Of a stretch of DNA of 64,000 nucleotides, positions 9,764 through 30,223 are shown one piece after another. Positions within the stretch are counted from its first letter, which is position 1. Each line of letters starts with the position of its first letter. The position numbers and the translations under genes are program-made. This DNA comes from Sinohyriopsis cumingii (Eukaryota > Mollusca > Bivalvia > Unionida > Unionidae): contig CM068835.1 of the NCBI GenBank assembly GCA_028554795.2, positions 61,007,219 to 61,071,218 on the forward strand, read 5' to 3'. Below the pieces are notes generated by a model. The model saw nothing but the letters and a program-made list of their open reading frames with translations, had not been told where the DNA came from and ran no database searches.

Positions 9764-9803
9764 AGACCTTTTCAGGGCTACCCAATACTCTAGAAAAGAA
9801 ATA
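9764..9803 (+). terminator. Histone-type 3' stem-loop and downstream element after acc1 (A)
   Basis: The stem AGACCT/AGGGCT closes a TTTC loop at 9764-9779, with one A-G mismatch that the B copy lacks. It is followed by ACCCA and the purine-rich TCTAGAAAAGAAATA. It lies 30 nt after the stop codon at 9733. Confidence 0.75.
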
Positions 9804-10081
9804 ACGATCAATTTGCCAATGTGTGTAGGTAGAGTAGTGTGAAAATAAACACTAACTCTTTATTAATAGTGGAAGTGTATGTGTTTGTGTGTTAGTGTTT
9901 GTAAGTGCTTAAGTAAGTTGGTATGGATAGTAGATTAAAATGATGTCTTTTTCGGTGTTTGAGGTGTATATTTAGGGTTAAATTGGATTGCTTTGTGTAT
10001 GTAAATAGTCTATTGAATTGATTTATAAAAAATTTTAAAATAGTGATGGGTAGCATAAAAAAGTGAGTGAGTGTTTCTTTT
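9804..10081. other. Spacer between accessory genes
   Basis: AT-rich, non-coding. It contains AATAAA about 40 nt after the histone-type signal (~9844). Its sequence (AGTAGTGTG, ACACTAACTC, TAGTAGATTA words) is repeated in the spacers after acc2 in A and after acc1 and acc2 in B, so the whole gene-plus-spacer unit looks duplicated. Confidence 0.6.
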
Positions 10082-10183
10082 AGGTCCGCGCGTTGTTGTT
10101 GATTTTGGTCACGATCTAGGTAAGATGAATTTTATGTTTTTAGGGGGATGTTTTCCTTCACGTCCGCGCTTTTAGTATAAATT
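10082..10183 (+). promoter_or_regulatory. Accessory promoter cassette A2 (double box)
   Basis: Order: a partial box ending GTCCGCGCG, then the middle element GGTCACGATCTAGGTAAGAT (10107-10126), then a full box with ATGTTTTCCTTCACGTCCGC, then TATAAATT at 10176-10183. The ATG follows at 10239. Confidence 0.8.
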
Positions 10184-10238
10184 GAAACTCGCTGGGCAGT
10201 CTAGCTACCCTTGTTGATTGATCAACACAGCCAGAAGA

Positions 10239-10547
10239 ATGAATAGCAGAATAGTGAAACTGTTAGAACTCCAGATGCACCTGGAATATGCCAGGCGCAT
10301 AGTAAACGAACTATCAGCGGAGGCTATCGTAGAAGAAGCAAGAATGAAGAAAGAAGAGGAGGAGAGAAGAGAGAGGGAAGAAGAGGAAAAGAAAAGAGAA
10401 GAGAGGATGTCGTTCAATATTCCCGAGACAGAGGATTGGGGTGTTGAAGCGAATCATCCTCCCTCTGCGCTCCCCAGAAGAAAGGTGAAAGAAGACTGGG
10501 GAAGAAGATGCGTGTGTGGCGCCAGGCCAGGAAGGTGCAACCATTAG
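10239..10547 (+). CDS. Accessory gene acc2 (Glu/Lys/Arg coiled coil with Cys-rich end), element A
   Basis: 102 residues. An N-terminal helix (KLLELQMHLEYARRIVNELS) precedes a Glu/Arg/Lys-rich coiled-coil stretch (residues ~38-60). A conserved C-terminal motif follows (WGRRCVCGARPGRCNH) with three Cys and a His, possibly metal-binding (inference). B carries a 127-residue homologue in which the coiled-coil stretch is longer through repeated RRYKEEE units, while the ends are conserved. No known family. A histone-type hairpin lies 31 nt after the stop. Confidence 0.7.
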   Translation: MNSRIVKLLELQMHLEYARRIVNELSAEAIVEEARMKKEEEERREREEEEKKREERMSFNIPETEDWGVEANHPPSALPRRKVKEDWGRRCVCGARPGRCNH

Positions 10548-10578
10548 ATAGGTGCATCAGGAGTTCAAAAAAACCAAC

Positions 10579-10619
10579 AGCCCTTTTAAGGGCTACCCAA
10601 TACTCTAGAAAAGAAATAA
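10579..10619 (+). terminator. Histone-type 3' stem-loop and downstream element after acc2 (A)
   Basis: Perfect 6-bp stem AGCCCT/AGGGCT with loop TTTA at 10579-10594, then ACCCA, then CTCTAGAAAAGAAATAAC. It lies 31 nt after the stop codon. Confidence 0.82.
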
Positions 10620-10824
10620 CTATTAATTTGCCAATGTGTGTAGGTAGAGTAGTGTGTATATAAACACTAACTCTTTTTAAAAAAATGTGAGGGTATGTGT
10701 TTGTGTGTTTGTGTTTGTAAGAGTAAAGGTATGTTTGTGCGAATAGTAGATTATGGGTTTCTTTATTGTTTCTTAGCAAATGTGGAGAGTATAGTTAGGG
10801 TTATATTATATGAATTGAAAAAGT

Positions 10825-10935
10825 AGGGGGATGTTTTCCTTCACGTCCGCGCGATGTTTGGTCATGATCTAGGTAAGATCCATTTTATGTTTTAGGGGGA
10901 TGTTTTCCTTCACGTACGCGCTTTAAGTATAAGAA
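10825..10935 (+). promoter_or_regulatory. Accessory promoter cassette A3 (double box)
   Basis: A full box at 10826-10852, the middle element GGTCATGATCTAGGTAAGAT at 10860-10879, a second box (with CACGTACGCGC) at about 10894-10921, then TATAAG at 10928. The ATG is at 10974. Confidence 0.82.
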
Positions 10936-10973
10936 CCCACAGTATTCGTCGTTCAAACCATTCTACATAGAAG

Positions 10974-11312
10974 ATGGCTTCAAACCACCTGGATAAATTT
11001 CAATCATTGCAAGACGTCCTTGACAATTTGGGAATGATAGAACAAATGCTCGTACGACTAGTTGAAGATCACTATTCTTATAGTCCGCATAGAGTAAAAA
11101 TGGAAATTAATAATTTAAGTAAAGCAAAGGATATGATAAGTGGTGTGATGAAGGAAATAAAGGAGGAGAAGGAGGATGAAGAGGAAAGGACAAGGATGAC
11201 AGCATGGAATGAAAAAATTGAAAAAGAAGAAGAAAATGAGAAGAGGAAGAAAGAAGAAGAGGAGGAAGAGAAGAAAGAAGAGGAGGAGAAAAAAAGAAGA
11301 AAAATAGTGTAG
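10974..11312 (+). CDS. Accessory gene acc3, element A
   Basis: 112 residues. The N-terminal 60 residues are helical (LVRLVEDHYSYSPHRVKMEI, LSKAKDMISGVMKEIKEE). The rest is a Glu/Lys-rich coiled coil. It occupies the same terminal slot and has the same promoter and 3' signal as the B gene at 14063-14656, but the two proteins are clearly different, apart from a weak helical match. It reads outward into the TIR, which supplies its hairpin 70 nt after the stop. Confidence 0.65.
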   Translation: MASNHLDKFQSLQDVLDNLGMIEQMLVRLVEDHYSYSPHRVKMEINNLSKAKDMISGVMKEIKEEKEDEEERTRMTAWNEKIEKEEENEKRKKEEEEEEKKEEEEKKRRKIV

Positions 11313-11379
11313 GTGAGAAAATAAGAAGTTGGTGGAGGAAAAGAAGAAATTAGAAAGCAGAAGAAGAAGAAGAAAACCC

Positions 11380-11752
11380 AAAGGCCCTTTTCAGGGCCCC
11401 CCATATTTCTCGAAAAGAGATAGCCTTTCATTGCCTACCCTTTTTTATTTTGTTTTTTATTTTTTTTAAAAATAGAGACCCTCCCTGTTTCAATTTTACA
11501 TAGACCCTATACAGTCCCAGGGGTTTTTGGCCATGTTAAATTTACATAGACCCTATATTGTCCCAGGGTTTTTGGCCATGTTAATTCCCATAGACCCTAT
11601 ATTGTCCCACGATTTTTGGCCATGTTAATTCCCATAGACCCTATATTGTCCCACGATTTTTCTCCATGTTAAATTTACATAGACCCTATATGTTCCCAAG
11701 GGTGTTTTTAATGATAAGTCCCATAGACCCTATAGGATCCCCATTCACTACT
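11380..11752. repeat. Right terminal inverted repeat of element A with 45-bp units
   Basis: It runs from the histone-type hairpin to the terminal ACTACT. From 11495 to 11740 the word TAGACCCTAT recurs every 45 bp (11501, 11546, 11591, 11636, 11681, ~11724), with CCATGTTAA between. It has the same layout as the B TIRs but diverged unit sequences. The left TIR is outside the window. Confidence 0.8.
11383..11424 (+). terminator. Histone-type 3' stem-loop and downstream element after acc3 (A), inside the TIR
   Basis: Perfect stem GGCCCT/AGGGCC with loop TTTC at 11383-11398, followed by CCCCA and TTTCTCGAAAAGAGATAG, which matches the purine-rich histone downstream element. Confidence 0.83.
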
Positions 11753-13713: not shown

Positions 13714-14053
13714 AGTAGTTAAGTGGGATACCCTACGTACAATGGGAATTAGCATTACAGGGACCCCTGGGACACTCTACGTACAATGGAAATTTAACAT
13801 GGCGAAAAATCGTGGGACACTTTACGTACAAGGGGAATTTAACATGGCGAAAAATCGTGGGTCACTCTACGTACAAGGGGAATTTAACATGGGAATAGAG
13901 TTTGGGTTTGTTTAGGGACAAGGGGAATTGAACATGGGATTTTTTTTTTTTTTAAAAAAAAAAATTTTTTTAAATTTAAATTTAAATTTAGGCAATTGAA
14001 AGGCTATCTCTTTTCGAGAAATATAGTTGGCCCTGAAAAGGGCCTTTGGGTTT
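13714..14053. repeat. Left terminal inverted repeat of element B
   Basis: Inverted match to 29896-30223. Outer part: three to four 45-bp units (TACGTA at 13778, 13823, 13868) with AATTTAACATGG words. Then an A/T-rich block, and the inner end is the histone-type hairpin used by acc3. Confidence 0.93.
14006..14044 (-). terminator. Histone-type 3' stem-loop and downstream element after acc3 (B), inside the TIR
   Basis: On the minus strand: perfect stem GGCCCT/AGGGCC with loop TTTC (14029-14044), flank AACTA, then TTTCTCGAAAAGAGATAG. It lies 18 nt after the acc3 stop at 14063. Confidence 0.83.
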
Positions 14054-14062
14054 TTTCTTCTT

Positions 14063-14656
14063 TTAACTTCTTAACTTTTTCCACCATCCTCTTATTTTGT
14101 CCATCATTCCTTTCTTTTTCTTCTTTTCTGTTTCCGGCATCCAGTCCGGGTGGCCCATGGCCCGGAACTTCTCTTGGATTTTCATCCAGTTTGTGTTCAG
14201 TTTTTCTAGTTCTTCCTTTTTTTTATTTTCTTCTTCTTTTCTTTCCTTTGACCACTTTTCTTTGATCTTCTTGACCTCTTCGGTCAGTACATTCCTCATT
14301 AGTTCTTCAGCTTTCTTAAGTTTTTCTAACCCCCACTTCGCGAAACACCAATCTGTCCATTCTGCAATGTCTTCTAGAAAGCACCTTGCACTCGTCACAT
14401 GATCTATTGCTTCTTTTAACTTACCCACTTTCACATACGGTAGGTTAATTAAACCTCTGATTCTCTTCTCCTCATCCTCTATCATTTCTTTTACAATATT
14501 TACTGATAAGTGTAGGCTGGTTACTTGTCTTGAGTCGAAGTCTTTTGTCACTGCATACCTCGATTCCTGTTCAACCCTTTCTGCTACACTCAGTCCATCT
14601 ACCATCCAATACCAACTTCCCATAAGATCGTGGTATAAAGCTGAAGCTGCTGGCAT
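14063..14656 (-). CDS. Accessory gene acc3, element B
   Basis: 197 residues, the largest accessory protein. It has an N-terminal aromatic region (residues ~1-25), then helices including VKVGKLKEAIDHVTSARCFL. A long Lys/Glu coiled coil follows (residues ~115-160), and a basic Trp-rich end (IRGWWKKLRS). No known domain. It reads outward toward the element end. Promoter cassette at 14708-14820, histone-type hairpin 18 nt after the stop. It shares its position and signals, but little sequence, with acc3 of element A. Confidence 0.7.
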   Translation of the reverse strand: MPAASALYHDLMGSWYWMVDGLSVAERVEQESRYAVTKDFDSRQVTSLHLSVNIVKEMIEDEEKRIRGLINLPYVKVGKLKEAIDHVTSARCFLEDIAEWTDWCFAKWGLEKLKKAEELMRNVLTEEVKKIKEKWSKERKEEENKKKEELEKLNTNWMKIQEKFRAMGHPDWMPETEKKKKKGMMDKIRGWWKKLRS

Positions 14657-14707
14657 CTTCTTGTTTGCTTATTCCGTAGAATGGGCTCCAATGACCAACA
14701 CTGTTAG

Positions 14708-14820
14708 TTTTATAGTGAAAGCGCGTACGTGATGGAAAACATCCCCTAAAAAACATAAAATTGATCTTACCTAGATCATGACCAAACAACGCGCGGACGT
14801 GAAGGAAAACATCCCCCTAC
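14708..14820 (-). promoter_or_regulatory. Accessory promoter cassette B3 (double box)
   Basis: Reading the minus strand: a full box ending CGTCCGCGCG, the middle element GGTCATGATCTAGGTAAGAT, a second box (with CACGTACGCGC), then CACTATAAAAC. The ATG follows at 14656. Confidence 0.82.
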
Positions 14821-14840
14821 TTTCTCATTTCATATAATAA

Positions 14841-15105
14841 AAACCCAAACTATACTCTCCACATACGCTAAGAAACAATAAACAAAATCCATAATCTACT
14901 ATCCACACAATCGTACGTGAGCGGTTACAAAACCCAAACTATACTCTCCACATACGCTAAGAACAATAAACAAAATCCATAATCTACTATCCACACAATC
15001 GTACGTGAGCGCTTACAAAACCCTAACTATACTCTTCACCTACGCTAAGAAACAATAAAGAAACCCATAATCTACTATTCACACAAACATACCTTAGCTC
15101 TTACA
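14841..15105. repeat. Three tandem copies of an 88-89-bp spacer unit
   Basis: Units begin at 14841, 14930 and 15018, each with AACCCAAACTATACTCT (or AACCCTAACTATACTCT in the third), AATCTACTAT and a GTACGTGAGCG-like end. Element A has a single copy of the equivalent spacer (about 10720-10805). Confidence 0.85.
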
Positions 15106-15200
15106 AGCACCAACACACAAACACATACCCTCACACTATCTTAAAAAAGAGTTAGTGTTTATATTTACACTACTCTACCTACACATTGGCAAATTGATGG

Positions 15201-15241
15201 TTATTTCTTTTCTAGAGTATTGGGTAGCCCTGAAAAGGGCT
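15201..15241 (-). terminator. Histone-type 3' stem-loop and downstream element after acc2 (B)
   Basis: Minus strand: perfect stem AGCCCT/AGGGCT with loop TTTC (15226-15241), then ACCCA, then ACTCTAGAAAAGAAATAA. It lies 31 nt after the stop. Confidence 0.84.
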
Positions 15242-15272
15242 GTTTTTTGTTTGGAACTTCATGGACACCTGG

Positions 15273-15656
15273 TTAATGGTGGCACCTTCCAGGCCTGGCG
15301 CCGCATACACATCTTATCCCCCAGTTACTTTTTACCTTTTGGGGGGAGAGAGCAGAGGCAGGATATGTCGCTTCAGAATCCCAATTTTCGCTCTCTGGGA
15401 TTCTGAAATTTCTTCTTCTTCTCTCCTTTTCCTCCTCCTCCTCCTCCTCTTCTTTGTATCTTCTCTCCTCCTCTTTGTATCTTCTTTCCTCTTCTTCTTT
15501 ATATCTTCTCTCCTCCTCTTCTTTGTTTCTTTTTTCCTCCTCCTCTCTTATCCTTCCCTCCTCCACAATGGCTTCCGCGGCCAGTTCATTTAATATGCGC
15601 CTGGCATATTCCAGTTGCACATGAAGTTCCAACAGTTTCTCCAGTCTCGTGTTCAT
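15273..15656 (-). CDS. Accessory gene acc2, element B
   Basis: 127 residues, homologous to the A gene at 10239-10547. An N-terminal helix (KLLELHVQLEYARRILNELA) precedes a coiled-coil region expanded by repeated RRYKEEE units. The end is conserved (WGIRCVCGARPGRCHH). The repeated units make the central region prone to length change while the two ends are kept, which suggests the ends carry the function. Promoter cassette upstream, histone-type hairpin 31 nt after the stop. Confidence 0.75.
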   Translation of the reverse strand: MNTRLEKLLELHVQLEYARRILNELAAEAIVEEGRIREEEEKRNKEEEERRYKEEEERRYKEEERRYKEEEEEEEEKERRRRNFRIPESENWDSEATYPASALSPQKVKSNWGIRCVCGARPGRCHH

Positions 15657-15705
15657 TTTTGGTGTTGATCAATCAACAAGGGTAGTTGGACTGCCGAACG
15701 AGTTT

Positions 15706-15808
15706 CAATTTATAGTGAAAGCGCGGACGTGAAGGAAAACATCCCCTAAAAACATAAAATTGATCTTACCTAGATCATGACCAAAAAACAACAACGCTCG
15801 GACCTAAA
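15706..15808 (-). promoter_or_regulatory. Accessory promoter cassette B2 (double box)
   Basis: Minus strand: a partial GTCCGAGCG box, then GGTCATGATCTAGGTAAGAT, then a full box, then CACTATAAATTG. It closely matches cassette A2. Confidence 0.82.
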
Positions 15809-16080
15809 AGAAACACTCACTCACTTTTTTTATGCTACCCATCACTATTTTAAAATTTTTTTATAAATCACTTCAATAGACTATCCACATACGCAAAGCA
15901 ATCCAATCTAACTCCAAATATACACCTCAAACACCAAAAAAGACATCATTTTAATCTACTATCCATACCAACTTACTTAAGCACTTACTAACACACAAAC
16001 ACATACCCTCACATTTTTTAAAAAAGAGTTAGTGTTTATTTTCACACTACTCTACCTACACACATTGGCAAATCGATCGT

Positions 16081-16121
16081 TATTTCTTTTCTAGAGTATT
16101 GGGGTAGCCCTGAAAAGGGCT
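16081..16121 (-). terminator. Histone-type 3' stem-loop and downstream element after acc1 (B)
   Basis: Minus strand: perfect stem AGCCCT/AGGGCT with loop TTTC (16106-16121), flank ACCCCA, then ACTCTAGAAAAGAAATAA. It lies 16 nt after the acc1 stop at 16138. Confidence 0.84.
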
Positions 16122-16137
16122 GTTTTTTTTTTGTTTG

Positions 16138-16521
16138 CTATGGCATTCTTTTTTTAGTTTCTAAGAATGCGATGTCCTCTGAGGATAGACTTTCTGGCGA
16201 TAGGTCTGCTTCTTCGGAAAGAAAAGAAGAACTCTTTGGTGTCGATACGGCAATCGACAAAGCCTCTGTCAGGTTCAGGTTGCTGTTCTGTTGCTGTTGT
16301 TGTTGTTGTTGCTGCTGTTGCTGCTGTCTCTGAAGTCTGTACTTCTCTGTCCATTCTTCCTTCTCCCTGTTCATTTCTTCTCTGAAGAGCTCTTCTATCA
16401 AGTCTTCAGTGACTTTTAACATTCTCACATTCTCTATTTCTTCTGGATTAGGTATCAGACTGTGTCTGACCCTATGCAATTTCACGTAGGCTTCGTTGAG
16501 TTTAGCTAGTTTGGAGCACAT
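16138..16521 (-). CDS. Accessory gene acc1 (polyQ protein), element B
   Basis: 127 residues from the first ATG (MCSKLAKLNEAYVKLHRVRH). A helical charged region is followed by about 15 Gln (CAG/CAA) and then a Ser/Glu-rich acidic end (LSEEADLSPESLSSEDIAFL). Element A reads the homologous DNA after the Gln run in another frame and ends basic. The acidic version looks more like a natural protein, so the A copy is probably the shifted one (inference). Promoter with a single box at 16573-16614. Confidence 0.68.
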   Translation of the reverse strand: MCSKLAKLNEAYVKLHRVRHSLIPNPEEIENVRMLKVTEDLIEELFREEMNREKEEWTEKYRLQRQQQQQQQQQQQQQNSNLNLTEALSIAVSTPKSSSFLSEEADLSPESLSSEDIAFLETKKRMP

Positions 16522-16572
16522 CTTCTTAGGAGGATGAGTCGCCAATGGATGGTTAGACTGGAAACAACCCGG

Positions 16573-16614
16573 TTCTTAAAGTCAAAGCGCGGACGTGAAG
16601 GAAAACATCCCCCA
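16573..16614 (-). promoter_or_regulatory. Accessory promoter cassette B1 (single box)
   Basis: Minus strand: ATGTTTTCCTTCACGTCCGC, then GCGCTTTGACTTTAAGAA, as in cassette A1. Confidence 0.75.
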
Positions 16615-16844
16615 CACGGTTTTTGAGTCGCAACGTTTAGTGAGTGTCATGAGAGGGATAGTAAGAAATGAAAGAGCATCAATCCAACATTCTTATAGCT
16701 AAACAAAAGACAAAGGCATTTTTTTCAAAACACAACATTTTTTATTCAAAAATCACTTAACACTAAACAACAACTCTAACATTTTTAACAATAATCCAAC
16801 ATCATAACATCAAACAATTTTTTTCAAAACACAACATTTTTTCC

Positions 16845-16909
16845 ACAGTCTCATCACATTCCATCTTTAAAGTTTCTCCACTAGGTAAAGAGGGATAACA
16901 GTCTTCCAT
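16845..16909 (-). pseudogene. Remnant of the 168-residue gene; protease deleted
   Basis: The first ~20 codons match the A gene at 7945, after which the sequence jumps to DNA equivalent to A ~9055, past the protease stop. About 1 kb is missing, removing the rest of this gene and the whole adenain gene. Confidence 0.85.
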
Positions 16910-16914
16910 GGTTT

Positions 16915-18228
16915 CTAGTAATCTAGGATGACTTCTCTCAAACTGTTGATTTCTATGGTATTATCGAATTCTGCATACAGGATGACGTTCACCGTTTCAT
17001 CAGGGTCTCGGTCTTTAAACTGAATTTCCACACGAATCTGGCCTGATTTTATAGGGTGGAAATGTCCCTCGTCGCTGCCTTGGTCTGGAGTGAAATCGAA
17101 AGCCCACAAAGCGTAGCCTCCTGCATAATCCTCGTACGTAATACCGTGACTGGTATTGGTTCCTAACTGTCCGGTGGCTTCGTACAGGGACAAGTACGAT
17201 CTCAAGTAATTCTTCTTGGTAAAGTCAGGTTCGAAAGGTCGGGTACACAAGGTCTTGCCATCGCGACTGACTTCGATTTTGGACACGCCAAAGTGTTGAA
17301 AGTAGAAAGGATTTTTTTCGGCAGCTCCGTTGAAGGCTGTATTCTCGACGATGCCAACGATCAAACGTTTGGGTAACTGTCCTTGGAACAGATGATCTTC
17401 GATCATGGATCGCTGTCCCTTGGGAATGGTGAAGGTTTTCACTTCCACGCGTCGTATGGGATACTTGGCGGTCGTTCTGCTCAACGTCTGACTGATGTCG
17501 TTTCCCACTTTAGGTAACACTTCCACACGGCGTACGTAGAGTCTGGCTTCTAGGATTTTGGTTTTGTAACCGTCACTATCAGCCATCAAATGTAAAGCGG
17601 CACTGCTACGATTCAGTCTCAGGCGGACATCCACCCCGTTCAGCAAATACTTTTCTTGCAACCACATGTCCAAATGCAAACGATCCATCAGTTCTAAACT
17701 TGTGTCGGCTCCCGTGATTCTCTTTCTTCGTTCTACAAATCCATCATTGTTGTCTTTCTTTTCATCAGTTTCCAATATTTCAAACTTGGTAGGTTCGTCA
17801 GCTTCCCATACCACACAGGCATTGAGATGAGTGTTCTTGGCATCTATTCCGTACGTCAAGAGATTTTCCAGGTAGGCACGATAAGGGTAAGTATCCATGC
17901 TGCTACTGACCAGTTTGTTATTCAAGTACAAGTCCACTCCACTGAACAAGGAATGCATGAAATTGTTGACGGGAGCTACTGCTTCATCGTCTATAGCACC
18001 TCGAGTCTTATCTAGAATTTTGACTTTCAGGTACAAGTAACTGCTATTCAGATCGATGTAATCTTCGGGTTGTCCTTCGATTTCAAACTCGATGGGAGCG
18101 GAATCGGTCAGTGAGGAGACGGGGTAAAATTCCACCCACTGGGATTCTTGCATGGTCATCATGGTGGGGGACATGGCAAACAGATCCAGTTCCGTCTTGG
18201 AACAAGCGCAAGATTCTCGGTGCATCAT
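16915..18228 (-). CDS. Major capsid protein (double jelly-roll, hexon-like), element B
   Basis: 437 residues, uninterrupted. Same signatures as the A copy (YIDLNSSYLYLKVK, APVNNFMHSLFSGVDLYLNN, DTYPYRAYLENLLTYG). The main divergence from A is the segment around residues 65-75 and 140-180, probably exposed loops, while the flanking strands are almost identical. That local divergence in two otherwise very similar copies hints at diversifying change or recombination. Confidence 0.95.
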   Translation of the reverse strand: MMHRESCACSKTELDLFAMSPTMMTMQESQWVEFYPVSSLTDSAPIEFEIEGQPEDYIDLNSSYLYLKVKILDKTRGAIDDEAVAPVNNFMHSLFSGVDLYLNNKLVSSSMDTYPYRAYLENLLTYGIDAKNTHLNACVVWEADEPTKFEILETDEKKDNNDGFVERRKRITGADTSLELMDRLHLDMWLQEKYLLNGVDVRLRLNRSSAALHLMADSDGYKTKILEARLYVRRVEVLPKVGNDISQTLSRTTAKYPIRRVEVKTFTIPKGQRSMIEDHLFQGQLPKRLIVGIVENTAFNGAAEKNPFYFQHFGVSKIEVSRDGKTLCTRPFEPDFTKKNYLRSYLSLYEATGQLGTNTSHGITYEDYAGGYALWAFDFTPDQGSDEGHFHPIKSGQIRVEIQFKDRDPDETVNVILYAEFDNTIEINSLREVILDY

Positions 18229-18244
18229 TTTTTTGTCTCTTTTC

Positions 18245-18661: not shown

Positions 18662-18668
18662 GACTTAC

Positions 18669-20005: not shown

Positions 20006-20010
20006 GATGG

Positions 20011-21282: not shown

Positions 21283-21774
21283 TCACTTCTTCACTTTCTT
21301 TTTCTCTTGTGAGGAAGAAGGGGTGGTCATAATCTTTTTAATCCATCCAATTCTGGAGGTAGGTGGTGTTGTTAACTTGCGTACTTTTTTTGGTGGAGTT
21401 TGAAACCCTTCCTGTTCTTCTTCTCCTTTTTCTGTCTTGGTCACTGGTACTGGTGGTACTGGTACTGGTACTGGTACTGGTGATGGTGCTGGACTTTTCA
21501 TCAAGGTCTTAAAATCTTTCAGAGTGGGTAGAGCTGTTTCGTCTAAAGCTTTCTGGTGAAAGAGTTGCAGTCGTTGCAAGAGTTGACCGTACTTTTGCGA
21601 TTTTTCTGTTTCGGACAAATCTTGGCGATCCATCAAGGACTGCAATTCGTGTTGTAACTGGGACATCTCGCTCAAATGGGGATTGGGAGGTAAATGCGGG
21701 GTGCGTTGTTCTCGCCACCGATGGTATTCCATCCATCGTTTGTAAGGTACTAAAGCTAGTTTTCGTCCTTCCAT
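21283..21774 (-). CDS. Conserved Polinton protein with coiled-coil N-terminus, element B
   Basis: 163 residues. The first 95 match A (KLALVPYKRW; QLQHELQSLMDRQDLSETEK). The tail is different: a PVPVPVP run encoded by a GGTACT/GGTACC microsatellite, then a Lys-rich end. It is shorter than A (213 residues), which fits a tail under weak constraint. Confidence 0.65.
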   Translation of the reverse strand: MEGRKLALVPYKRWMEYHRWREQRTPHLPPNPHLSEMSQLQHELQSLMDRQDLSETEKSQKYGQLLQRLQLFHQKALDETALPTLKDFKTLMKSPAPSPVPVPVPVPPVPVTKTEKGEEEQEGFQTPPKKVRKLTTPPTSRIGWIKKIMTTPSSSQEKKKVKK

Positions 21775-21823
21775 GGGGTTGTCAGGGGTCGATTCTGAGA
21801 TCTTGGAACTTCCGAGGGCCTTT

Positions 21824-22210
21824 TTATCTTGCTCCCACCAGTCCTCCCAACATGGTTCCCAAGACTCCTTTCAGTATGGGGCCTAACAAGAGAGGTAAAA
21901 TACCTCCACGTTGCACTAACATCTTCTTTTTTTGACGAATGGGAATTTTCTTTTGAACCATTTGGCGAAGAACGTGACGATGTTTGCCTAAGCATTGTTT
22001 CTGGTGTTTGGACAAAGGGATCGTGCCTTTCAAAACGTTCAAACAACATTCGCACACGGTATCGATGACCTCTTTGGAGGCTGTTTGAATGAGTTTTTTT
22101 CGTAGGGGTGGAGAAGCTTTGGACAGGACAGATAACATGTCCCCATGTTTGGCTAAACGTGGTGGCAGTCCTTTCCTTTTCTTTCCTTGGGGTTTTCTGG
22201 AGGGTGACAT
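21824..22210 (-). CDS. Small basic protein with Cys/His cluster and hydrophobic C-terminus
   Basis: 128 residues from the ATG at 22210, chosen over an upstream GTG because a TATA box (TATAAAAAAGG, ~22266-22273) sits about 55 nt before it. Basic start (SPSRKPQGKKRKG), then a CECC...H..CLGKHRH cluster that could bind zinc. It ends in a Gly/Leu-rich hydrophobic segment (ILPLLLGPILKGVLGTMLGG), reminiscent of adenoviral pX/Mu-type or membrane-active peptides. Element A retains only the 3' half. Confidence 0.65.
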   Translation of the reverse strand: MSPSRKPQGKKRKGLPPRLAKHGDMLSVLSKASPPLRKKLIQTASKEVIDTVCECCLNVLKGTIPLSKHQKQCLGKHRHVLRQMVQKKIPIRQKKKMLVQRGGILPLLLGPILKGVLGTMLGGLVGAR

Positions 22211-22269
22211 CTTTGAGTTTTCAGGAGCACCAAAAAAACACTGATACCCGACTTGGTCACAGGCCTTTT

Positions 22270-23190
22270 TTATACTGGAACGCGTCGCCACTGATTGTCT
22301 TTACGTCGTATTAGTTTGTGGACAGGCATGACACGTCGTGCAGGGGTACGTAACGGACTAAATCGAGCCAGTTCTTGCTTGGACAAATCCAGTAAACTTT
22401 GTAACATGCCCGATCTTTCTTGAACTTTGATTTTGGGAGAAGGTACTTTGTGAGCAGTAGCCACTGCCACTAAATTGGAAGGTCCTGCCACTGGGGAAGT
22501 TCTTTTGGGGGTCATCAACGGAGAAGTTCTTGGTGTGATCAACGTCTCCAAGTACTCTTCAGTTCTGGGTGTCATTAACGGAGAAGTGGACAAACGTGAA
22601 GCTGCCGGAGACGCAGTCACCGCCGTGGCAGGTCGTGGTTTGCGAGTGTAAGGTTGCGTCCTGGCCGAAGTGCCTCTCTTGCGACTAGTTTTCTGTGGAC
22701 TTTTCTTTTTCATGGGGGCTTCTTTTCTTTTTCCGGGGTGGTGGTGGTGTCTGGTCAGGGTAGGGTCCTGCCACTGGAGAAGTTCTCCTTGGGGACCTGG
22801 TCTTTTTCTTCTTGGGGCTTCGTTGGACTTTGTCTTGGGGATAACTTTGGGGGCATTAGGATCCCATCTTAAGAGTGAGCGAATGATGACCCCTCCTAGA
22901 GTACCGCTCCCTCCAGGTTTCAAAATGATTTGTTTTTTGGTTTGAGTGTCGATGCGGGGATCGGCCAGTTGGACCAAAGCGACTTTGTTTCGATCGAAAA
23001 AGCGTTTGGTTTGATGAGGAATCTGAATCATTCCTTGGAGTAATTGACGTACAGTCACCGTGAACCATCGTAAGACTTCTTTGAGACTAGCTTCTAAGAC
23101 ACGAGCTCTTGTTTGTGGATTTTTTTCTCGACTGATGCCATACAAGGCACGAATCAATTTGACGGGAAGATGCGACTGAAGGGACGTCAT
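22270..23190 (-). CDS. Basic core-like protein, element B (full length)
   Basis: 306 residues. The globular N-terminal ~125 residues are as in A. A Lys/Arg/Pro/Ser-rich middle follows (KRGTSARTQPYTRKPRP, repeated SPLMTP). The conserved basic C-terminus (RFSPLRTPARRVMPVHKL) is missing from A. It is probably a virion DNA-binding core protein by composition and position. Its 3' end carries the TATA box of the next gene. Confidence 0.72.
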   Translation of the reverse strand: MTSLQSHLPVKLIRALYGISREKNPQTRARVLEASLKEVLRWFTVTVRQLLQGMIQIPHQTKRFFDRNKVALVQLADPRIDTQTKKQIILKPGGSGTLGGVIIRSLLRWDPNAPKVIPKTKSNEAPRRKRPGPQGELLQWQDPTLTRHHHHPGKRKEAPMKKKSPQKTSRKRGTSARTQPYTRKPRPATAVTASPAASRLSTSPLMTPRTEEYLETLITPRTSPLMTPKRTSPVAGPSNLVAVATAHKVPSPKIKVQERSGMLQSLLDLSKQELARFSPLRTPARRVMPVHKLIRRKDNQWRRVPV

Positions 23191-23244
23191 GTTCGCACTG
23201 AGAGTGAGACAGACGAAAAAGGGTCTGAGGTTTTTATAGATTTT

Positions 23245-23988
23245 TTATGGGGAGTGAAATGTAGTCGAGGACGGAGACGTGTACAGGACAGGCCCTCCGT
23301 CTTGGCACCAGTGGTGAAACAAGTGGGTACGAAATCGCAAATCCTCGGGAGTCGTAGGTTTCAAATCGACGAGTAAATAGGCGTGTGGAGTTTGAGTGGC
23401 ATCGTCGTACGCCTGAGTCAACCAAGGCGTTCCTAACTGTTTGGCTAAGACTTGCACTTGCGATTTATCTCGAGGGCTTTTAAACAAGACCACGTAATGC
23501 GCATTCAGACTGATGGTGCGATGGGCTTTACTTTGTTGAAACAAATTTTGGGTGATGTAAACGACACTGGCATTACGGTGATGCCCTTTGCGCGTGAACC
23601 ACAGTTTAATTTCTTCTTCGTCTTCTCCTAACATGTCGTCGAAAATGACCAAATGGGTTAGACGGGAGTCAGAGACGATGCCATCGTCTTCTTTAGGAAT
23701 GCCTTCCACAAACACGATGGAATCGCCTTGACTTTCTCGCAAGAGGCTGTACGCCGATTGCCACTCTTTGTAACACCACACGATTCGTTGAGGGGGTCGA
23801 TCGATCAAATGATGTTTATGTTCGATCAAACGTTTGACAAATTCGGTTTTGCCTGAACCGCTAGGTCCAGCAATGAGCATGTTAAAGGGATGGCGAAGAT
23901 ACAAAGCCTCCCAACTGGCACGATCTAAGTTTTCGTCGATGACTTTGACAGTAGAGGAAGAGGGAGCAGAGACAGTAGAGGTAGCCAT
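23245..23988 (-). CDS. Polinton packaging ATPase, element B
   Basis: 247 residues. Walker A GPSGSGKT and Walker B LVIFDD as in A. A TCA-to-TAA change removes the last four residues compared with A, probably harmless. The start at 23988 lies in ACCATGG after a TATA box. Confidence 0.93.
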   Translation of the reverse strand: MATSTVSAPSSSTVKVIDENLDRASWEALYLRHPFNMLIAGPSGSGKTEFVKRLIEHKHHLIDRPPQRIVWCYKEWQSAYSLLRESQGDSIVFVEGIPKEDDGIVSDSRLTHLVIFDDMLGEDEEEIKLWFTRKGHHRNASVVYITQNLFQQSKAHRTISLNAHYVVLFKSPRDKSQVQVLAKQLGTPWLTQAYDDATQTPHAYLLVDLKPTTPEDLRFRTHLFHHWCQDGGPVLYTSPSSTTFHSP

Positions 23989-24047
23989 GGTGTGAGAAAT
24001 GTCACTTGTGACACGAAAACAAACAAGACAAGAGTTTATATACTTTT

Positions 24048-24484
24048 TCAGAACACGTTTATTGAATGTTTTTTTTTCAAACATGAATACGAAAGACAAA
24101 AAATACATAAAAGCCAAAGGCTTAAGTACAAGAATAAAAGGCACATGATAACCATGAACGTGGAATAAACACAAGTATCTGTACAACATGTTTTGGGTAA
24201 AGTTCTAACCAGTTCTATAGTAGGGGTAAGGTCACACAAGTGTCCTCCCGAAAGGGTCTTTCAGGCCTGTCCACGACAGTCCTGTCCTGGGTGACGGGTT
24301 CTTCTGGCACCGTCACTAACACAGGTTGAAAAGTAACTTTTTTCCTTGAATAACTCTCGTGCATACTAGGCCACCTCTTGTGTCCAAGCCTCAAAACCCT
24401 GGTCTCGGTGATGTCCAACATTTGACTCCTAACCAATCTGGTTTCTTCTTCGTTAACGACATGGTAAGTTACTTCAATGAACAA
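24048..24484 (-). pseudogene. Remnant of the post-PolB gene(s) and small membrane protein
   Basis: Corresponds to A ~730-1110. Most of the upstream gene is deleted. A TAG replaces CAG in its frame, and loss of one C near 24231 breaks the overlapping small membrane-protein frame, whose hydrophobic segment is still recognisable (VIMCLLFLYLSLWLLCIF). Confidence 0.7.
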
Positions 24485-24488
24485 TGAA

Positions 24489-27400
24489 CTATCGATCTTG
24501 CCTAGGGTTCCTTTTCATATACAGACCAATACCGACGTGACCGTACGGTAAGGTGAAGTGACTGGGAAGTCGCACTCGCTTCTGGTATACAATTTGATAG
24601 ACTTTTTCCAAGGGTCGACTGACGATGTGGTGAGTGGGTAAACGTACAATCTTGTTCGGTTGATAGGTGGTCACTTTAAAGTTTCCATCCTCTCCCGATT
24701 GCAAGGCTTCTTTCAATACCCCAAAGTTGACCACTCGACTGGTACGATGATTCAGAGTCAGTCCTTTCACTTTGCACGTCGTGTGCACTTCTCCTTGTGG
24801 GTCCCGGTATTCGTAGCCGTAATTTTTGGGACCACCACTGACGAAACTTAGAATCTTGTTGTCGGGATGCTCGTCTGTCCAGGCTCCTAAACGGTCTCCT
24901 TCGATGTCAGGGTGCTGTTGACTCGGGTGATGGATGTAAATGCAACTGTCCGTGTCAAAGTACAGGACGCGTTCTTCTAACAGTTCTAAAGCTTCGTACA
25001 ATTTTAAGCGAGCATGAGCTGTCACGTAAGCCGCAATGATGACATTTCCAAAAGGGTCGTCTTGTGCAAAGTCCAGATCTTCTTCGTAATTGACCAAGAT
25101 CAAATCCTCTCGAACGACGTCCACGTGTTTCTGTATTTGGTTTTGTCGTGAATCATCTGGAAGTAGCGGGAAGGTTCTGTCAAATATTCCGTCTTGGGTA
25201 AACACGGTCGTTGTGCCATTTTACCCCACAAGCAATTTAACATCACTTTGGCAAACGATCGCCTGCCTTCGTTTTTTTCGATGTGGTCTAAAGAGATGCC
25301 TTCTTGTGCGTAGTATTTCTCTTTGAATTGTATTTGGTCTTCGGGAGTGTGACACCAGGAAGGATAGCCGCTGGCTTCTTGTTTCAGTTTCCACCACTTG
25401 GTATCCTTGCTGTTCTAACTTTAGGCGTCGCTGACAAGTGTCCTGGTACAAGTCTTCCATGGTTCGTTGCAAAAACTGATTTTTAGTGTCACGGTCTGGG
25501 TAACAGATGGGACATCCGTGAAATAAGCAACCGTTAAACTCATACACGATCTTGGGGTTTTCTAAGTCCCAGTCATCTACCGAATACGTTCCGATGGTCT
25601 TTTCGCCTCCTCCGTTGCGGGCATGCTGAATCCATTTGTCTTCCTTGTCGCACAAGTAATGTAACCAACGTAGGGCTTTGACCGAGTATTGACGCTTGAC
25701 ATAGTGGGTCGTTTGAGGACTGATGACAGCTACAGTGTTTTCAGGCATGAATCGTTGGCGGTACACTAAGGAACACGCTTTGGCAATGGTGCAAGCTTCT
25801 TTCAAAGGATCGACCCCTCCGTGTTCCATGAACAGTTCTCGAAATTTTCCACAGCAACGCCGTAAAATGTCCACGTCGGAACGACAATACTTTAACATTT
25901 CTTCCTGAAAGTCGAAAGGGTCCGAGGCGTGAGCTTGGTACCAAGCGTAGAAAGCTTCTCGTTGTTCGGTACGCATGTTGTCGGGGTCGTAATAGTGAGC
26001 CTCAGGCAAATGGGGTAGAACGGCATGTTGATTGGCTTCCGTATTGAAAAAGTGTGGAAAGTACCCTTTAGCCATTTCTGTCATTCCAAACGTTTTAGGC
26101 ATTCGACTCAAAGGCATGGCCAAGTAACTCATCCAATCTTTAAACTGTAATTGTCTCACTTGCATGAAAATGATTTTGGCTCCGTTCAAAATCACTTTAG
26201 GACGTTCGGTGCCATGTTCCGTATAGTACCTCAAAAGAAACTGTCCATCGTATCCGGAGAAATTGTGAGCCATCACCGTGGCATGACGATGACAATCTCC
26301 GTAACGTTCGATGTCCTCTTTGCTCCACGTCTTGTCGATGGGGTCTAAGACCCATTGGGCAAAATCGGCTAACGTGTTTGGTCCCCGAAAGATTTTTTCA
26401 CGCCCTCCGGGAATCTTGCTGCAGTGAGGGCAATGACTGAAGATAGGTTCTTGAATGCACTTCTCGCACGCTCGATGAGCCACGCAGAAATTAGGAATGT
26501 GAATGCCGGTGTCTTGCATGCATTCGAAATCGAAAAAGATGAAATTGCCTTTCTTCTTGTGACCGTCCTCTTTCTCTGGTGGGGGTTGGTATTTTTGCAC
26601 GTAGCATTCGTGTTCCAAGTCCACGATGTGGTGACAAATGTGACATTTTTTCTTTCCTCGACATACGTGTGCCTTGGCATTGTTGGTAAGTATGCCTTGT
26701 CCACAGGTAGGGCACAATCTCAAGAGTTGACAAGCACATTTCTGCTGTGAACCTTGCGTCTTCAGATGTTGCTGGTAACAGACAGGGCTGACAAACGTAC
26801 GCAGACAAGTCGAACAAGGCACTGGTTCTTCGCTCAGACAGGGTGGAGAGGCCAAACATTCTGGGCATTTCAATCCACAATGCTTGTGTTGTTCTCGATT
26901 GTTATAACCATAATCACATTTCTCACAATAATAACCGTATCCCAGGAATCCAGTGATACTGGTAATGGTATCGAAATGGTCATCGTGATGATAGACATGA
27001 ATGTATTTTCCGTCCTTAAAATCTTGGCCTCGAAACAACAGAGGCCCGCGCATTTCTTGAGGGTGCACTTTCAAGGTGTAGCGTGGAGCTAGGGCATCTT
27101 GCAATTCTTGCATCTCAGGAATGCCACAGGGTGTGTCTTTGGACAGTCCGGCTTGTTGTAACAGGAGTTCTGCTTCGTTTCGTTGTTTGGCTCGATAGGA
27201 ACGTTGAATAGTGTTCCAGGTTCTTTTCCATTCTACCGTGTCGTTCTTGTTGGCATAGGTTCGTCCCACCACGATGGCTCGAGCTAAACACATCTGGTCT
27301 TGAGGGTTGTTAATTCGGACGAGACTTGTTTTGGTGTTGCGAAGGTCGTCCACCAATAACATCTTTTTGCGTCCTGTCCCTTGAGGAAGAGAGACGTGAG

Positions 27401-27947
27401 CCATTTTCAGTGTGGCTTTACCATCGGTGATGTCAAACTGGTCATTAGATTGTTGTACGTGTTGAATCTTGTCCATGACTTTGGAAGGGGTCAGTTCTGC
27501 GGGTCTGCTAAACTCGATCCAAACAGGGGATTTCAAACCGTCGTGATCTATGGATAGTGTCAAGCGATCGTCTTCTTTGGGTTGACATTGTCGCTTGAGT
27601 GCAGTGAGCAAAGAATCCCACATCTCGGTGATAAACCCTTCTGCTTTCTCCAAGGGTTCGTCGGCCTTGAAATCTTTAAACTTCACCGTGTAGGTGTAAG
27701 CCGTGGTTCTAAATTTTCTAGAGGAGCGCTTTTCCGTCTCTCGAATGGAATAGTATTTTTCAGGGTTGACTAAGGGTGACGAACTTGGTTTAGAGGGTTC
27801 GGATTCTGGTTCACTCATGTCCTCTTCAAAATCACTGGCATGAATTTGTGCCAAGATTTCATCCCTGGTACGAGGCGATAGATCACGTTTCTGCCTCTTA
27901 CTTTCTTCTTCTTCTTCTTTCTTCTCGAATGAATAGGATCGTTTCAT
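24489..27947 (-). pseudogene. Protein-primed family B DNA polymerase (PolB) of element B, inactivated
   Basis: N-terminal Polinton domain (residues ~60-330; KFRTTAYTYTVKFKDF, MCLARAIVVGRTY). A Cys/His-rich zinc-finger region follows (~345-455). Exonuclease motifs: FFDFECM (~470), HNFSGYDGQFL (~560) and YCRSDVDIL (~688). Motif [11 protein letters not shown] is at about 24955. Compared with C, about 610 bp between VVE (~25400) and the KQEA region is deleted, removing polymerase motif A (SLYP) and shifting the frame. A second frameshift lies near 25165. The polymerase cannot be functional. The promoter region is shared with the divergent zinc-knuckle gene. Confidence 0.95.
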
Positions 27948-27993
27948 CTTGAGTGCAAAACGTCAAATGACTCAAGTTCAAACACCATAGACT

Positions 27994-28028
27994 AATTTAT
28001 AGTCATGGCAAACCAGCGTATATAAAAA
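27994..28028. promoter_or_regulatory. Divergent promoter between PolB and zinc-knuckle gene
   Basis: Only 133 bp separate the two ATGs (27947 minus, 28081 plus). TATAAATT on the minus strand (27994-28001) serves PolB, and TATATAAAAA (28019-28028) serves the zinc-knuckle gene. The boxes are about 18 bp apart. Confidence 0.7.
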
Positions 28029-28080
28029 GGGTGTGTCTTGTCCTTTCACTATTCATTTCACTCTCAAACCGAGGAGAACG

Positions 28081-28573
28081 ATGGAAGAGACTACCCAGAT
28101 GGAACGTTTCGTCAGAGCTTTGCGAGGGGTCATTAGAAAATTCTCTTCAGACCAGCCGACGGACTACTCTCCTTCCTTTCGAGATAAGAGTCAGGATACT
28201 TGCTATATCTGTCAGAAGAAAGGGCATTGGTCTTCAGAGTGTCCAGACCGTCAAAAAAGAAAAAAAAACAGGGGCTAAAAAAGACAAAAGTCAAGATACC
28301 TGTTATTATTGTAAAGAAAAAGGACATTGGTCTCCAGATTGCCCAAAAAAGAAACAAGAGGAGTCAGAAGAAAAGAAGGATTCTTCTTCAGAAGAGAGGG
28401 ATTCTTCGGAAGAAGAGAGGGATTCTTCGAAAGAAGAGAGGGATTCTTCAGAGGAAGAGGAGGAAGAAAGAAGACAATTCTATTTAAAAGAAGCAAAGAA
28501 ACAGGAGAAGAAAAGAAGAAGGGAAGAAAATGAGGAAAAAACGGTGAAGAAATTAAAAAAACAGAGAGACTAA
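28081..28573 (+). CDS. Zinc-knuckle protein with acidic/basic tail; reading-frame break at an A run
   Basis: Two CX2CX4HX4C knuckles: CYICQKKGHWSSEC in the first frame and CYYCKEKGHWSPDC in the second. They are a direct duplication of about 70 bp. The frame from the ATG at 28081 stops at 28276-28278 just after the first knuckle. The +1 frame carries the second knuckle, repeated DSSSEERDSSEEE units and a Lys/Arg/Glu-rich end to 28573. The switch point is a run of nine A (28260-28268), so it is either an indel or a slippage site. Knuckles of this type bind single-stranded nucleic acid; a PolB accessory role is a guess. Confidence 0.65.
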
Positions 28574-28802
28574 ACAAGGAGAAAGAAGAAGTCAATGAAC
28601 TTTTAATTAAAGTGTTTTGTGGTGAATTGTGAATTGGATTGTAAAAAAAATGGATAAAAGAATACATGAATGATATAAGGTAAGTGTCTTTGAGTTTTGA
28701 TTTTATAATAAGAAGCTACACTCACGCACTCATACACAGACACGTACTATAAGGGTAAAATGGGTGGGGTTTATTTTTGAGTTATTGGCAAATTGAAATT
28801 GT
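28574..28802. other. Intergenic DNA between convergent zinc-knuckle and acc4 genes
   Basis: AT-rich, non-coding; no AATAAA hexamer was noticed near the zinc-knuckle stop, and no histone-type hairpin on that strand. Confidence 0.5.
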
Positions 28803-28841
28803 ATTTCTTTTCGAGAAATGTGGGTGGCCCTGAAAAGGGCC
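28803..28841 (-). terminator. Histone-type 3' stem-loop and downstream element after acc4
   Basis: Minus strand: perfect stem GGCCCT/AGGGCC with loop TTTC (28826-28841), then ACCCA, then TTTCTCGAAAAGAAATA. It lies 25 nt after the stop at 28867. This is the copy closest to the metazoan histone consensus. Confidence 0.87.
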
Positions 28842-28866
28842 TTTTTATTTTGGTGTAGGGGTGAGT

Positions 28867-29427
28867 TTAACCAATCAACTTTAACTGCCTTAAGCCTTTG
28901 CCACGGCCGAGGCCTACTTCTGATGATTGGGTTGAAATCACTAAGGGTGGTACGACAGGCTTAGTCACAGGGTTGGCGTGTTTAGCTCGGGAAGGTCGTA
29001 TTCTCTTCGGTCGTGATAAAGAAGTCTGATACATTTGTTTCAGACTTCTTAACTCCGCTAAAATGTCCAACAGTACCGTAGCCGTTTGATTTTCACCCTC
29101 TTGTTTCTTTGCTGCTACTTCTTCTTGCTGTTGTTGCTGTTGTTTTTTTCTTACCTCTTCTTGTTGCTGTTGCTGTTGCTGTAGGAGAAAAGCTTGTTCC
29201 GCTTCCTTTTGTCGTTGCATAAATTTCTCCAATTCTTCTTTCTGTCTCTGTCTAAAATTCTCCACTTGCGGTAATAAAGAAGGTAACGAAGGTTCCGGAA
29301 CAAATTCTTGCGAGGTAAGAAAATCCACAAAATCCCAATGTACCTCTTCTGAAAGTAAGTCCGGGTTCCCTTGGGCAGTCTCCCCTGCTGGTGCACCCCA
29401 ATGGATCGTTTTCTGAGTTTCCGTCAT
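28867..29427 (-). CDS. Accessory gene acc4 (Gln-rich coiled coil)
   Basis: 186 residues. An acidic/aromatic start (VHWDFVDFLTSQEF) precedes a long coiled coil rich in Gln and Glu with two Q runs (residues ~80-108). A helical ILAELRSLKQMYQ follows, and a basic Pro-rich end (RPKRIRPSRAKHA; GLGRGKGLRQ). No known domain. Its promoter is shared with the divergent acc5: TGACGTCA and TATATAG about 50-60 nt upstream of the ATG. It lacks the box cassette of acc1-acc3 but has the same histone-type 3' end. Confidence 0.72.
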   Translation of the reverse strand: MTETQKTIHWGAPAGETAQGNPDLLSEEVHWDFVDFLTSQEFVPEPSLPSLLPQVENFRQRQKEELEKFMQRQKEAEQAFLLQQQQQQQEEVRKKQQQQQQEEVAAKKQEGENQTATVLLDILAELRSLKQMYQTSLSRPKRIRPSRAKHANPVTKPVVPPLVISTQSSEVGLGRGKGLRQLKLIG

Positions 29428-29646
29428 GTTGAATCACTGTCGCATAGATTGACTGCACACAAGCGCTAGCGAATCTATATAGACCAACTGACGTCACAGA
29501 CTGCTCTCTTCGGATTGGATGCGGGCTGACTGAATTTTGTAACGCGTGTTCGGATTGGTGAATGAACTCAATCCGTTTCAATCCTACCTCTACCTATAAA
29601 TAAGCGCAGTTCAGTGCATTGATTCACTTGTTCTCGTCGCTTCAAG
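29428..29646. promoter_or_regulatory. Divergent promoter of acc4 and acc5
   Basis: 219 bp between ATGs. Toward acc4: a CRE-like TGACGTCA (~29490) and TATATAG (~29477). Toward acc5: TATAAATA (29596-29603). Two CGGATTGG words (29512-29519, 29551-29558) are inverted CCAAT boxes. CCAAT and CRE sites also occur in many animal histone promoters. Confidence 0.6.
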
Positions 29647-29880
29647 ATGTGGACCGATGTGCAATCTTCTACGCTTGTGTCTTCCATGATGTTCCGGACG
29701 GACATACCCATGTATGTCCGATCCAAGTGGACCGTTGTCCACAGGACAAACACCAGCCTGTGGATACGTAGGATCTACGTTGAAAGACAAGGATGCCTGA
29801 AAAGAGTGCTGATTTACGGACCAACAGTGAGACGCAGCCTAAGAACAAGAAGAAGACCAATGCGGTACCCTTTATGTTAA
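29647..29880 (+). CDS. Accessory gene acc5 (small basic protein) at the PolB-side end
   Basis: 77 residues, Arg-rich (VRRSLRTRRRPMRYP), with no Lys-rich coiled coil. No recognised domain. It reads outward toward the right end of element B and ends 24 nt before a histone-type hairpin that belongs to the TIR. TATAAATA lies about 45 nt upstream. Small and unsupported by a homologue in the window, but position and signals match the other accessory genes. Confidence 0.55.
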   Translation: MWTDVQSSTLVSSMMFRTDIPMYVRSKWTVVHRTNTSLWIRRIYVERQGCLKRVLIYGPTVRRSLRTRRRPMRYPLC

Positions 29881-29895
29881 TTAATACATTAACAT

Positions 29896-30223
29896 AAACC
29901 CAAAGGCCCTTTTCAGGGCCAACCATATTTCTCGAAAAGAGATAGCCTTTCAATTGCCTAAATTTAAATTTAAAATATTTAAAAAAAAAAAAAAATCCCA
30001 TGTTCAATTCCCCTTGTCCCTAAACAAACCCAAACTCTATTCCCCCATGTTAAATTCCCCTTGTACGTAGAGTGACCCACGATTTTTCGCCATGTTAAAT
30101 TCCCCTTGTACGTAGAGTGTCCCACGATTTTTCGCCATGTTAAATTTCCATTGTACGTAGAGTGTCCCAGGGGTCCCTGTAATGCTAATTTCCATTGTAC
30201 GTAGGGTATCCCACTTAACTACT
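29896..30223. repeat. Right terminal inverted repeat of element B
   Basis: Inverted copy of 13714-14053, ending TTAACTACT. Contains the hairpin for acc5, the AT-rich block and the 45-bp units. Confidence 0.93.
29905..29947 (+). terminator. Histone-type 3' stem-loop and downstream element after acc5, inside the TIR
   Basis: Perfect stem GGCCCT/AGGGCC with loop TTTC (29905-29920), flank AACCA, then TTTCTCGAAAAGAGATAG. Confidence 0.83.

Follow-up and report, generated by a model that had tools for sequence, protein, structure and literature searches.

Accessory genes of a Polinton family in the bivalve Sinohyriopsis cumingii are very probably built like replication-dependent histone genes

The 3′ end of metazoan histone mRNAs (Rfam family RF00032) is processed by SLBP and U7, and we know of no description of 3′ ends or promoters of the histone type on the genes of Polintons, also called Mavericks. 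An article from 2009 (PMC2781718) describes the stem-loop as unique to histone mRNAs and states that SLBP has never been implicated in the regulation of non-histone genes. Our full-text literature search, judged by title and the start of the abstract, returned no histone-type ends in Polintons, which tests their absence from print only weakly, and the main texts of PMC9683012 and PMC10120064 contain 0 occurrences of histone and of stem-loop. Here we look at a 64,000 nucleotide stretch of contig CM068835.1 of Sinohyriopsis cumingii (the window, in which all positions are given) that carries two Polintons, A and B, and we conclude that this Polinton family very probably has accessory genes built on the pattern of replication-dependent histone genes.

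Hairpins in the sense orientation are present at all eight places and on the strands where an earlier note on this DNA had put them (Table 1), each shortly 3′ of a stop codon at a distance of 16-70 nucleotides (nt), namely 30, 31, 70, 16, 31 and 18 nt for the six tandem genes and 25 and 24 nt for the two right-end genes. All eight lie 10-75 nt after a same-strand open reading frame (ORF) that starts with ATG and encodes at least 77 amino acids (aa), a placement shared by 5.7% of the positions in A and B. The 6-bp stem described in the note folds at seven of the sites but at 9764 (AGACCT/AGGGCT) a mismatch breaks one pair and folding does not predict the hairpin, and the ACCCA flank is exact at 9764, 10579, 15226 and 28826 with variants at the other four (ACCCC at 16106, CCCCA at 11383, AACCA at 29905 and AACTA at 14029). 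That the signals sit on every accessory gene of the two elements holds for all those visible, the left part of A not being recognisable in the window. Allowing up to 3 mismatches the pattern RGCCCTTTTHAGGGCY has 17 matches in the window including mirror reads, against a shuffle mean of 2.59 (standard deviation 1.61, maximum 6, 100 shuffles). Scored with RF00032, four of the eight sites (28826, 29905, 11383 and 14029) exceed the gathering threshold of 34 bits, with three below it (10579, 15226 and 16106) and 9764 unlisted at E-values up to 1. A model built from the seven intact modules, and so from seven of the eight sites it scored, gives these eight 65.7-83.7 bits and the next match in the window 13.7. 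The eight hairpins are not independent of one another, as 14029 and 29905 are two copies of one hairpin that lie near the inner ends of the B terminal inverted repeats and read outward, and 11383 is their counterpart in the right terminal repeat of A.

As a yardstick we used the histone genes of the same genome (2.9 Gb), where they form tandem repeats with a unit of about 8.3 kb, in a comparison covering two stretches (L061 and L062) of 19,600 bases. All five host histone genes end in a hairpin and a GAAAAG-type purine element, and their RF00032 scores (H3 35.9, H4 37.7, H2B 38.2, H2A 39.4 and H1 35.0 bits) are in the range of the element's better sites. A model made from element modules only (R1) gave 12 matches at E-values up to 10 in the two host stretches, 12/12 of them at histone 3′ ends with E-values from 2.3e-12 to 3.3e-8. 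It thereby picked out each of the five host gene types with no match elsewhere; the hairpin supplies much of its score. The repeat itself has many copies, a large part of them on small contigs and some at 13.10 Mb of contig C14 (150 of 662 candidates scored).

The purine-rich element claimed in the note, TCTAGAAAAGA or TCTCGAAAAGA, does follow each of the eight hairpins, and at the six measured sites GAAAAGA lies 13-14 nt past the end of the stem. The host versions are TCTAGAAAAGA in H3 and H2B, CTAGAAAAGA in H4 and H1 and CCCGAAAAGG in H2A. As the H3/H2B form is exact at four of the eight element sites, host U7 should pair with these four too. The sites at 9764, 10579, 15226 and 16106 have runs of 10-12 nt in common with host H3, H4, H2B and H1, the best of which are matched by shuffles in 0, 0, 0 and 1 of 300. 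At five of the eight sites no A[AT]TAAA occurs between 150 nt before and 250 nt after the hairpin. A second conserved box, (T)TCAATTTGCC, is seen 3′ of the purine element, for example at 9808-9817, and boxes resembling it occur in the host (TTTCAATTTTG in H2B and ATCAATTTTGCC in H2A); it is possibly a further U7 contact or other processing site.

In an alignment of the upstream stretches of the tandem genes a block, GATGTTTTCCTTCACGTCCGCGC, precedes a TATA-like box. The window holds eight copies of this 23-nt block at up to 3 mismatches, versus 0.00 in shuffles, and all eight stand 5′ of the six tandem accessory genes, of which two have a pair. The TATA-like box lies 29 nt from the start of the block in five genes, and A gene 3 has TTTAAG at 23 nt and TATAAG at 29 nt. 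The core genes of A and B have neither hairpin nor promoter block. Among the host promoters, H2B carries the block with 1 mismatch, H1 with 2 and H2A in reverse with 5, and that of H4 has TTTCTTTTAGGTCCGCGC, which is found at 10073 in A and with one difference at 15814 in B. The host distances from block start to TATA-like box are 28 nt in H1, 26 nt in H4 (variant block) and 52 nt in H2B. The block core ACGTCCGC may resemble the vertebrate HINFP/MIZF motif, a likeness on which our reading does not rely.

Genome-wide, a block query with N and W at two positions matched exactly at 31,152 places, against 0 for the same query written backwards, which at about three cassettes each suggests in the region of ten thousand elements in the genome. 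We sampled 40 of the first 41 listed block sites on contig C1, which fall into about 20 clusters, the omitted site being a twin 69 nt from another. This is a set that represents one end of one contig and, being chosen by exact promoter match, favours well-kept copies. A sense hairpin agreeing in at least 14 of 16 letters was present 413-850 nt downstream of 39 of the 40 promoter-chosen sites, the best hairpin score on the antisense strand being 10-13/16. Six pairs (G-U allowed) are found in 35 of those 39, GAAAAGA with at most 1 mismatch in 37, and in 37 too an ORF of at least 60 aa stops 0-110 nt short of the hairpin, and the TATA-like box lies at 29 nt in 33/40. RF00032 applied to 20 of the 40 loci placed 5 at or above the cut-off and 12 at 22.3-33.9 bits with 3 unlisted, and in a search of the genome with the same model the best 30 of 75 scored (from 589,472 first-look candidates) were all relatives of A and B.

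The coding potential of the accessory genes was assessed by the ratio of non-synonymous to synonymous substitution (dN/dS; Table 1), and their open-frame copies show purifying selection, with the caveat that dN/dS was taken on frames found open, a choice that gives intact copies more weight. Of the sampled tandem-gene loci 35/40 have, at the expected start, a frame that stays open for 80 codons or more; the genes at 10974 and 14063 are too diverged from one another for comparison. For the 77-aa gene at the right end of B a matching open frame is present at 16 places in 15 of 30 loci (L001-L030), and dN/dS is uninformative among near-identical copies, several pairs exceeding 1. We considered that this frame might be an accident beside a duplicated terminal repeat and rejected this on its 16 open relatives with dN/dS of 0.08-0.17. 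A reading of the accessory genes as captured histone genes was likewise rejected, as Pfam matches at E-values up to 1 included no histone fold or linker histone domain for the seven of the eight proteins scanned (all but the 77-aa protein). Single-sequence structure predictions for the products of 14063-14656 and 28867-29427 gave helices with mean predicted local distance difference test (pLDDT) values of 63 and 73, and a PDB sequence search with one accessory protein returned weak matches only. The retinoblastoma-binding motif LxCxE does not occur in the eight accessory proteins. The two glutamine-tract genes (9374-9733 and 16138-16521) end in different frames past the tract. In the 15 relatives sampled the frame is 114-122 aa long and stops 26-50 nt short of the hairpin, and beyond the tract the 16138-16521 frame ends differently from those of its relatives.

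The comparison with host histone genes supports the suggestion of the earlier note that the host histone 3′ pathway is borrowed, and borrowing of the host histone pathway by the element is, as far as sequence can tell, strongly supported. Capture of the signals from host histone genes, or continued matching to them, is favoured over convergence because of the near identity with the host's own block and purine element. In the mechanism we propose the six tandem genes would be transcribed from the host histone promoter block and the TATA-like box 29 nt from its start, the block placing them under the factor that drives host histone genes. All eight genes would give a transcript with a short leader-to-stop frame, a histone stem-loop (one damaged) and a host-type purine element, and host SLBP and U7 snRNP would cleave it past the stem-loop to leave a non-polyadenylated mRNA. 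The proteins would then be made in S phase, or in histone-rich oocytes or early embryos, when a DNA element can replicate. The core genes, with no hairpin or block in A and B, have an AATAAA after the cluster. A further-reaching proposal, on which we lean neither way, is that the genes form a class inside the host histone regulon at both promoter and 3′ end, with the histone machinery producing their proteins in S phase, or in oocytes and at cleavage stages, and that they may place so heavy a load on SLBP, U7 snRNP and the histone promoter factor that the host's supply of histones is affected.

Several results weigh against a histone-like construction of these genes. At the 5′ end, genes 28867-29427 and 29647-29880 are without the block although TATA-like boxes are present, and host H3 itself lacks any form of the block within 260 nt. 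Where the first pair is A-U, as at four tandem-gene sites, the site is below the Rfam cut-off or unlisted, and this pair is G-C in the five host genes. That it is G-C in 4/7 modules and A-U in 3/7 is a point in favour, but the covariation amounts to this single pair with a score reached by 19/500 shuffles. Beyond the four sites named above the similarity of the purine region to the host is weaker, the sites with TCTCGAAAAGA having host runs of only 8-9 nt that shuffles reach in 20-101/300, and 16/1000 random stretches of the window share a run of at least 10 nt with the host genes. Host U7 was not found by a family search with RF00066 in which 65 of 801,960 candidates were scored and no control was recovered. 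When paired with the U7 ends of human, fly and urchin, the four tandem-gene sites were at shuffle level (106-425/500 as good), and for the other four shuffles did as well in 41-127/500 for human, 6-20 for fly and 97-148 for urchin. An AATAAA lies 50-65 nt downstream at 3/8 sites, and 28826 has another 8 nt upstream, so that polyadenylation is possible there; the downstream AATAAA at the three sites could be a fallback. Conservation between A and B is also less telling for the four tandem-gene sites, where the module is kept at 43/46 between 10579 and 15226 but 40/555 windows are as good, and where the comparison of 9764 with 16106 is uninformative (237/402 windows as good).

The signals could alternatively be passengers, an ancestor having captured host histone gene ends once and the ends, now unused, having spread with the cassettes. 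The copying of cassettes within and between elements speaks for this, as do the one broken hairpin of the eight and the 4/39 sampled hairpins that lack a pair. However the terminal repeats of A and B agree in 57-60% of columns (gaps counted) while the module within them is near identical at 43-44/46, a conservation equalled by 12/397 and 13/429 windows, the six pairs are kept in 35/39 sampled hairpins, the frames bear the marks of purifying selection and the same core is kept in different flanking contexts, and we consider unused passengers very unlikely. Still less likely is a role at the level of DNA, with the palindromes serving replication, integration or gene conversion between cassettes; three of the eight hairpins do lie in terminal inverted repeats and the elements are mosaic in divergence, but five lie outside the repeats, all eight are in sense after a stop codon, and such a role has no need for loop polarity or a downstream purine element. 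The least likely of the three is that the hairpins are polyadenylation or termination signals outside the histone pathway, as in mimiviruses and virophages, to which their location at gene ends and the relationship of Polintons to virophages would point, but such signals are not known to be conserved in sequence, whereas here stem, loop and purine element match host histone genes and six genes also have the host promoter block.

A and B are Polintons by their PolB, retroviral-type integrase, packaging ATPase, terminal inverted repeats and 6-bp target duplication, an assignment pieced together from both elements, A supplying the integrase and ATPase and B the PolB, the repeats and the duplication. 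Above the Pfam cut-off A has an integrase core with a chromodomain and a poxvirus A32-like ATPase and B has a viral-type DNA polymerase B (PolB), and a weak adenovirus-type protease match in A is below it; the integrase region of B is a match to the integrase gene of A. B has AGTAGTTAAG at both termini, is flanked on each side by the duplication TCCGTG, and its terminal inverted repeats (13714-14053 and 29896-30223) are 94% alike. For A, B-like sequence starts at 757. Searches of viral contigs found no relatives via capsid, integrase, a two-row capsid alignment or PolB, in collections that may omit near records, and two hairpin patterns had 0 matches there; a search of genome contigs via capsid found none either, in a collection that may omit records near the window's genome.

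A number of further features were observed in and around the elements. Compared with A at 8014-9058, B near 16840 is without the stretch that in A carries the protease gene and the greater part of the 7945-8451 gene. The PolB frame of B (24489-27962) is broken, with a different frame open left of about 25.2 kb, and a PolB fragment at 36850-40971 has a reading frame broken more than once. Divergence between A and B is patchy, with synonymous divergence (dS) of 0.03-0.07 in the ATPase, integrase and 6189 gene and higher values elsewhere (0.16 in gene 1971, 0.23 in the capsid gene and 1.18 in one accessory gene), which suggests recombination between elements. Tandem 37-45-bp repeats lie within the terminal repeats (13768-13939, 30045-30169 and 11499-11734), and like-looking arrays at 42309-42432 and 48100-48684 may mark the ends of other elements. 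A palindrome, TTTATGTTAA...TTAACATAAA, occupies 29871-29898 immediately 5′ of the right-end hairpin and is similar in relatives, for example L002, L009 and L018. Elsewhere in the window a tRNA-like sequence (tRNA-Pro by ARAGORN) lies at 45640-45919, its downstream part recurs at 60182-60936, and by its look it is a tRNA-derived dispersed repeat.

Table 1 Features of Polintons A and B in the window; bit scores are for RF00032
Feature	Position	Strand	Basis
Polinton A, right part	757..11752	+	Similarity to B from 757; right terminus 11752
Polinton B, complete by its ends	13714..30223	-	Ends, target duplication, terminal repeats, PolB, integrase region
AATAAA 3′ of core gene cluster in A; B counterpart 16746 (-)	9160..9165	+	Motif scan
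Promoter block of A gene 1	9286..9308	+	Block scan
A accessory gene 1, 119 aa	9374..9733	+	ORF; dN/dS 0.08 vs B 16138-16521, first 76 codons
Hairpin of A gene 1, one stem pair broken	9764..9779	+	Pattern, fold, module model
Purine element TCTAGAAAAGA, example; same as host H3 and H2B	9789..9799	+	Sequence comparison
Variant block GTTTCTTTTAGGTCCGCGC, last 18 letters in host H4 promoter; B counterpart 15814 (-), one difference	10073..10091	+	
Promoter block of A gene 2	10147..10169	+	Block scan
A accessory gene 2, 102 aa	10239..10547	+	ORF; dN/dS 0.19 vs B 15273-15656
Hairpin of A gene 2	10579..10594	+	31.9 bits
Two promoter blocks of A gene 3 (10830-10852, 10899-10921)	10830..10921	+	Block scan
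A accessory gene 3, 112 aa	10974..11312	+	ORF; median dN/dS 0.14, 4 relatives
Hairpin of A gene 3, inside A terminal repeat	11383..11398	+	37.0 bits
Hairpin of B gene 14063-14656, inside terminal repeat	14029..14044	-	36.9 bits
B accessory gene, 197 aa	14063..14656	-	Median dN/dS 0.14, 3 usable of 4; predicted mostly helical, low confidence
Two promoter blocks of B gene 14063-14656 (14721-14743, 14791-14813)	14721..14813	-	Block scan
Hairpin of B gene 15273-15656	15226..15241	-	31.0 bits
B accessory gene, 127 aa	15273..15656	-	Median dN/dS 0.20, 9 usable of 13
Promoter block of B gene 15273-15656	15721..15743	-	Block scan
Hairpin of B gene 16138-16521	16106..16121	-	29.3 bits
B accessory gene, 127 aa, glutamine tract	16138..16521	-	Median dN/dS 0.32, 16 relatives including A gene 1
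Promoter block of B gene 16138-16521	16587..16609	-	Block scan
Hairpin of B gene 28867-29427	28826..28841	-	41.2 bits
B accessory gene beside PolB, 186 aa	28867..29427	-	ORF; one long helix predicted (single sequence)
77-aa gene at B right end, TATA-like box upstream	29647..29880	+	16 relatives, dN/dS 0.08-0.17 vs B
Hairpin of 77-aa gene, B right end, inside terminal repeat	29905..29920	+	38.1 bits

What we describe is a mobile element with a histone 3′ signal, and on most of the genes concerned also a histone promoter block, on genes that are not histone genes. If our reading is true, Polinton expression is tied to the cell's replication programme, and the element offers a natural class of non-histone genes with which to test what the stem-loop confers, as well as thousands of natural variants of the histone promoter block and stem-loop that can show which letters matter. 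With metazoan replication-dependent histone genes in general the accessory genes share the 6-bp stem, the TTTC or TTTA loop, the purine element and a short intronless frame, and with those of this host in particular the purine element (4/8 sites) and the promoter block (6/8 genes); they differ from histone genes in that the seven of eight products scanned have no histone domain, in residing in a high-copy mobile element and in the A-U first pair of four stems. The signals of mimiviruses and virophages likewise place a hairpin at the end of viral genes, but here the hairpin is of the histone type, is conserved in sequence and has a purine element 3′ of it. With other Polintons or Mavericks (adintovirus-like elements) A and B have in common the chromodomain integrase, viral-type PolB, A32-like ATPase, weak adenovirus-type protease match, 6-bp target duplication and terminal inverted repeats, and what sets them apart is the histone-type ends and promoters on their accessory genes.

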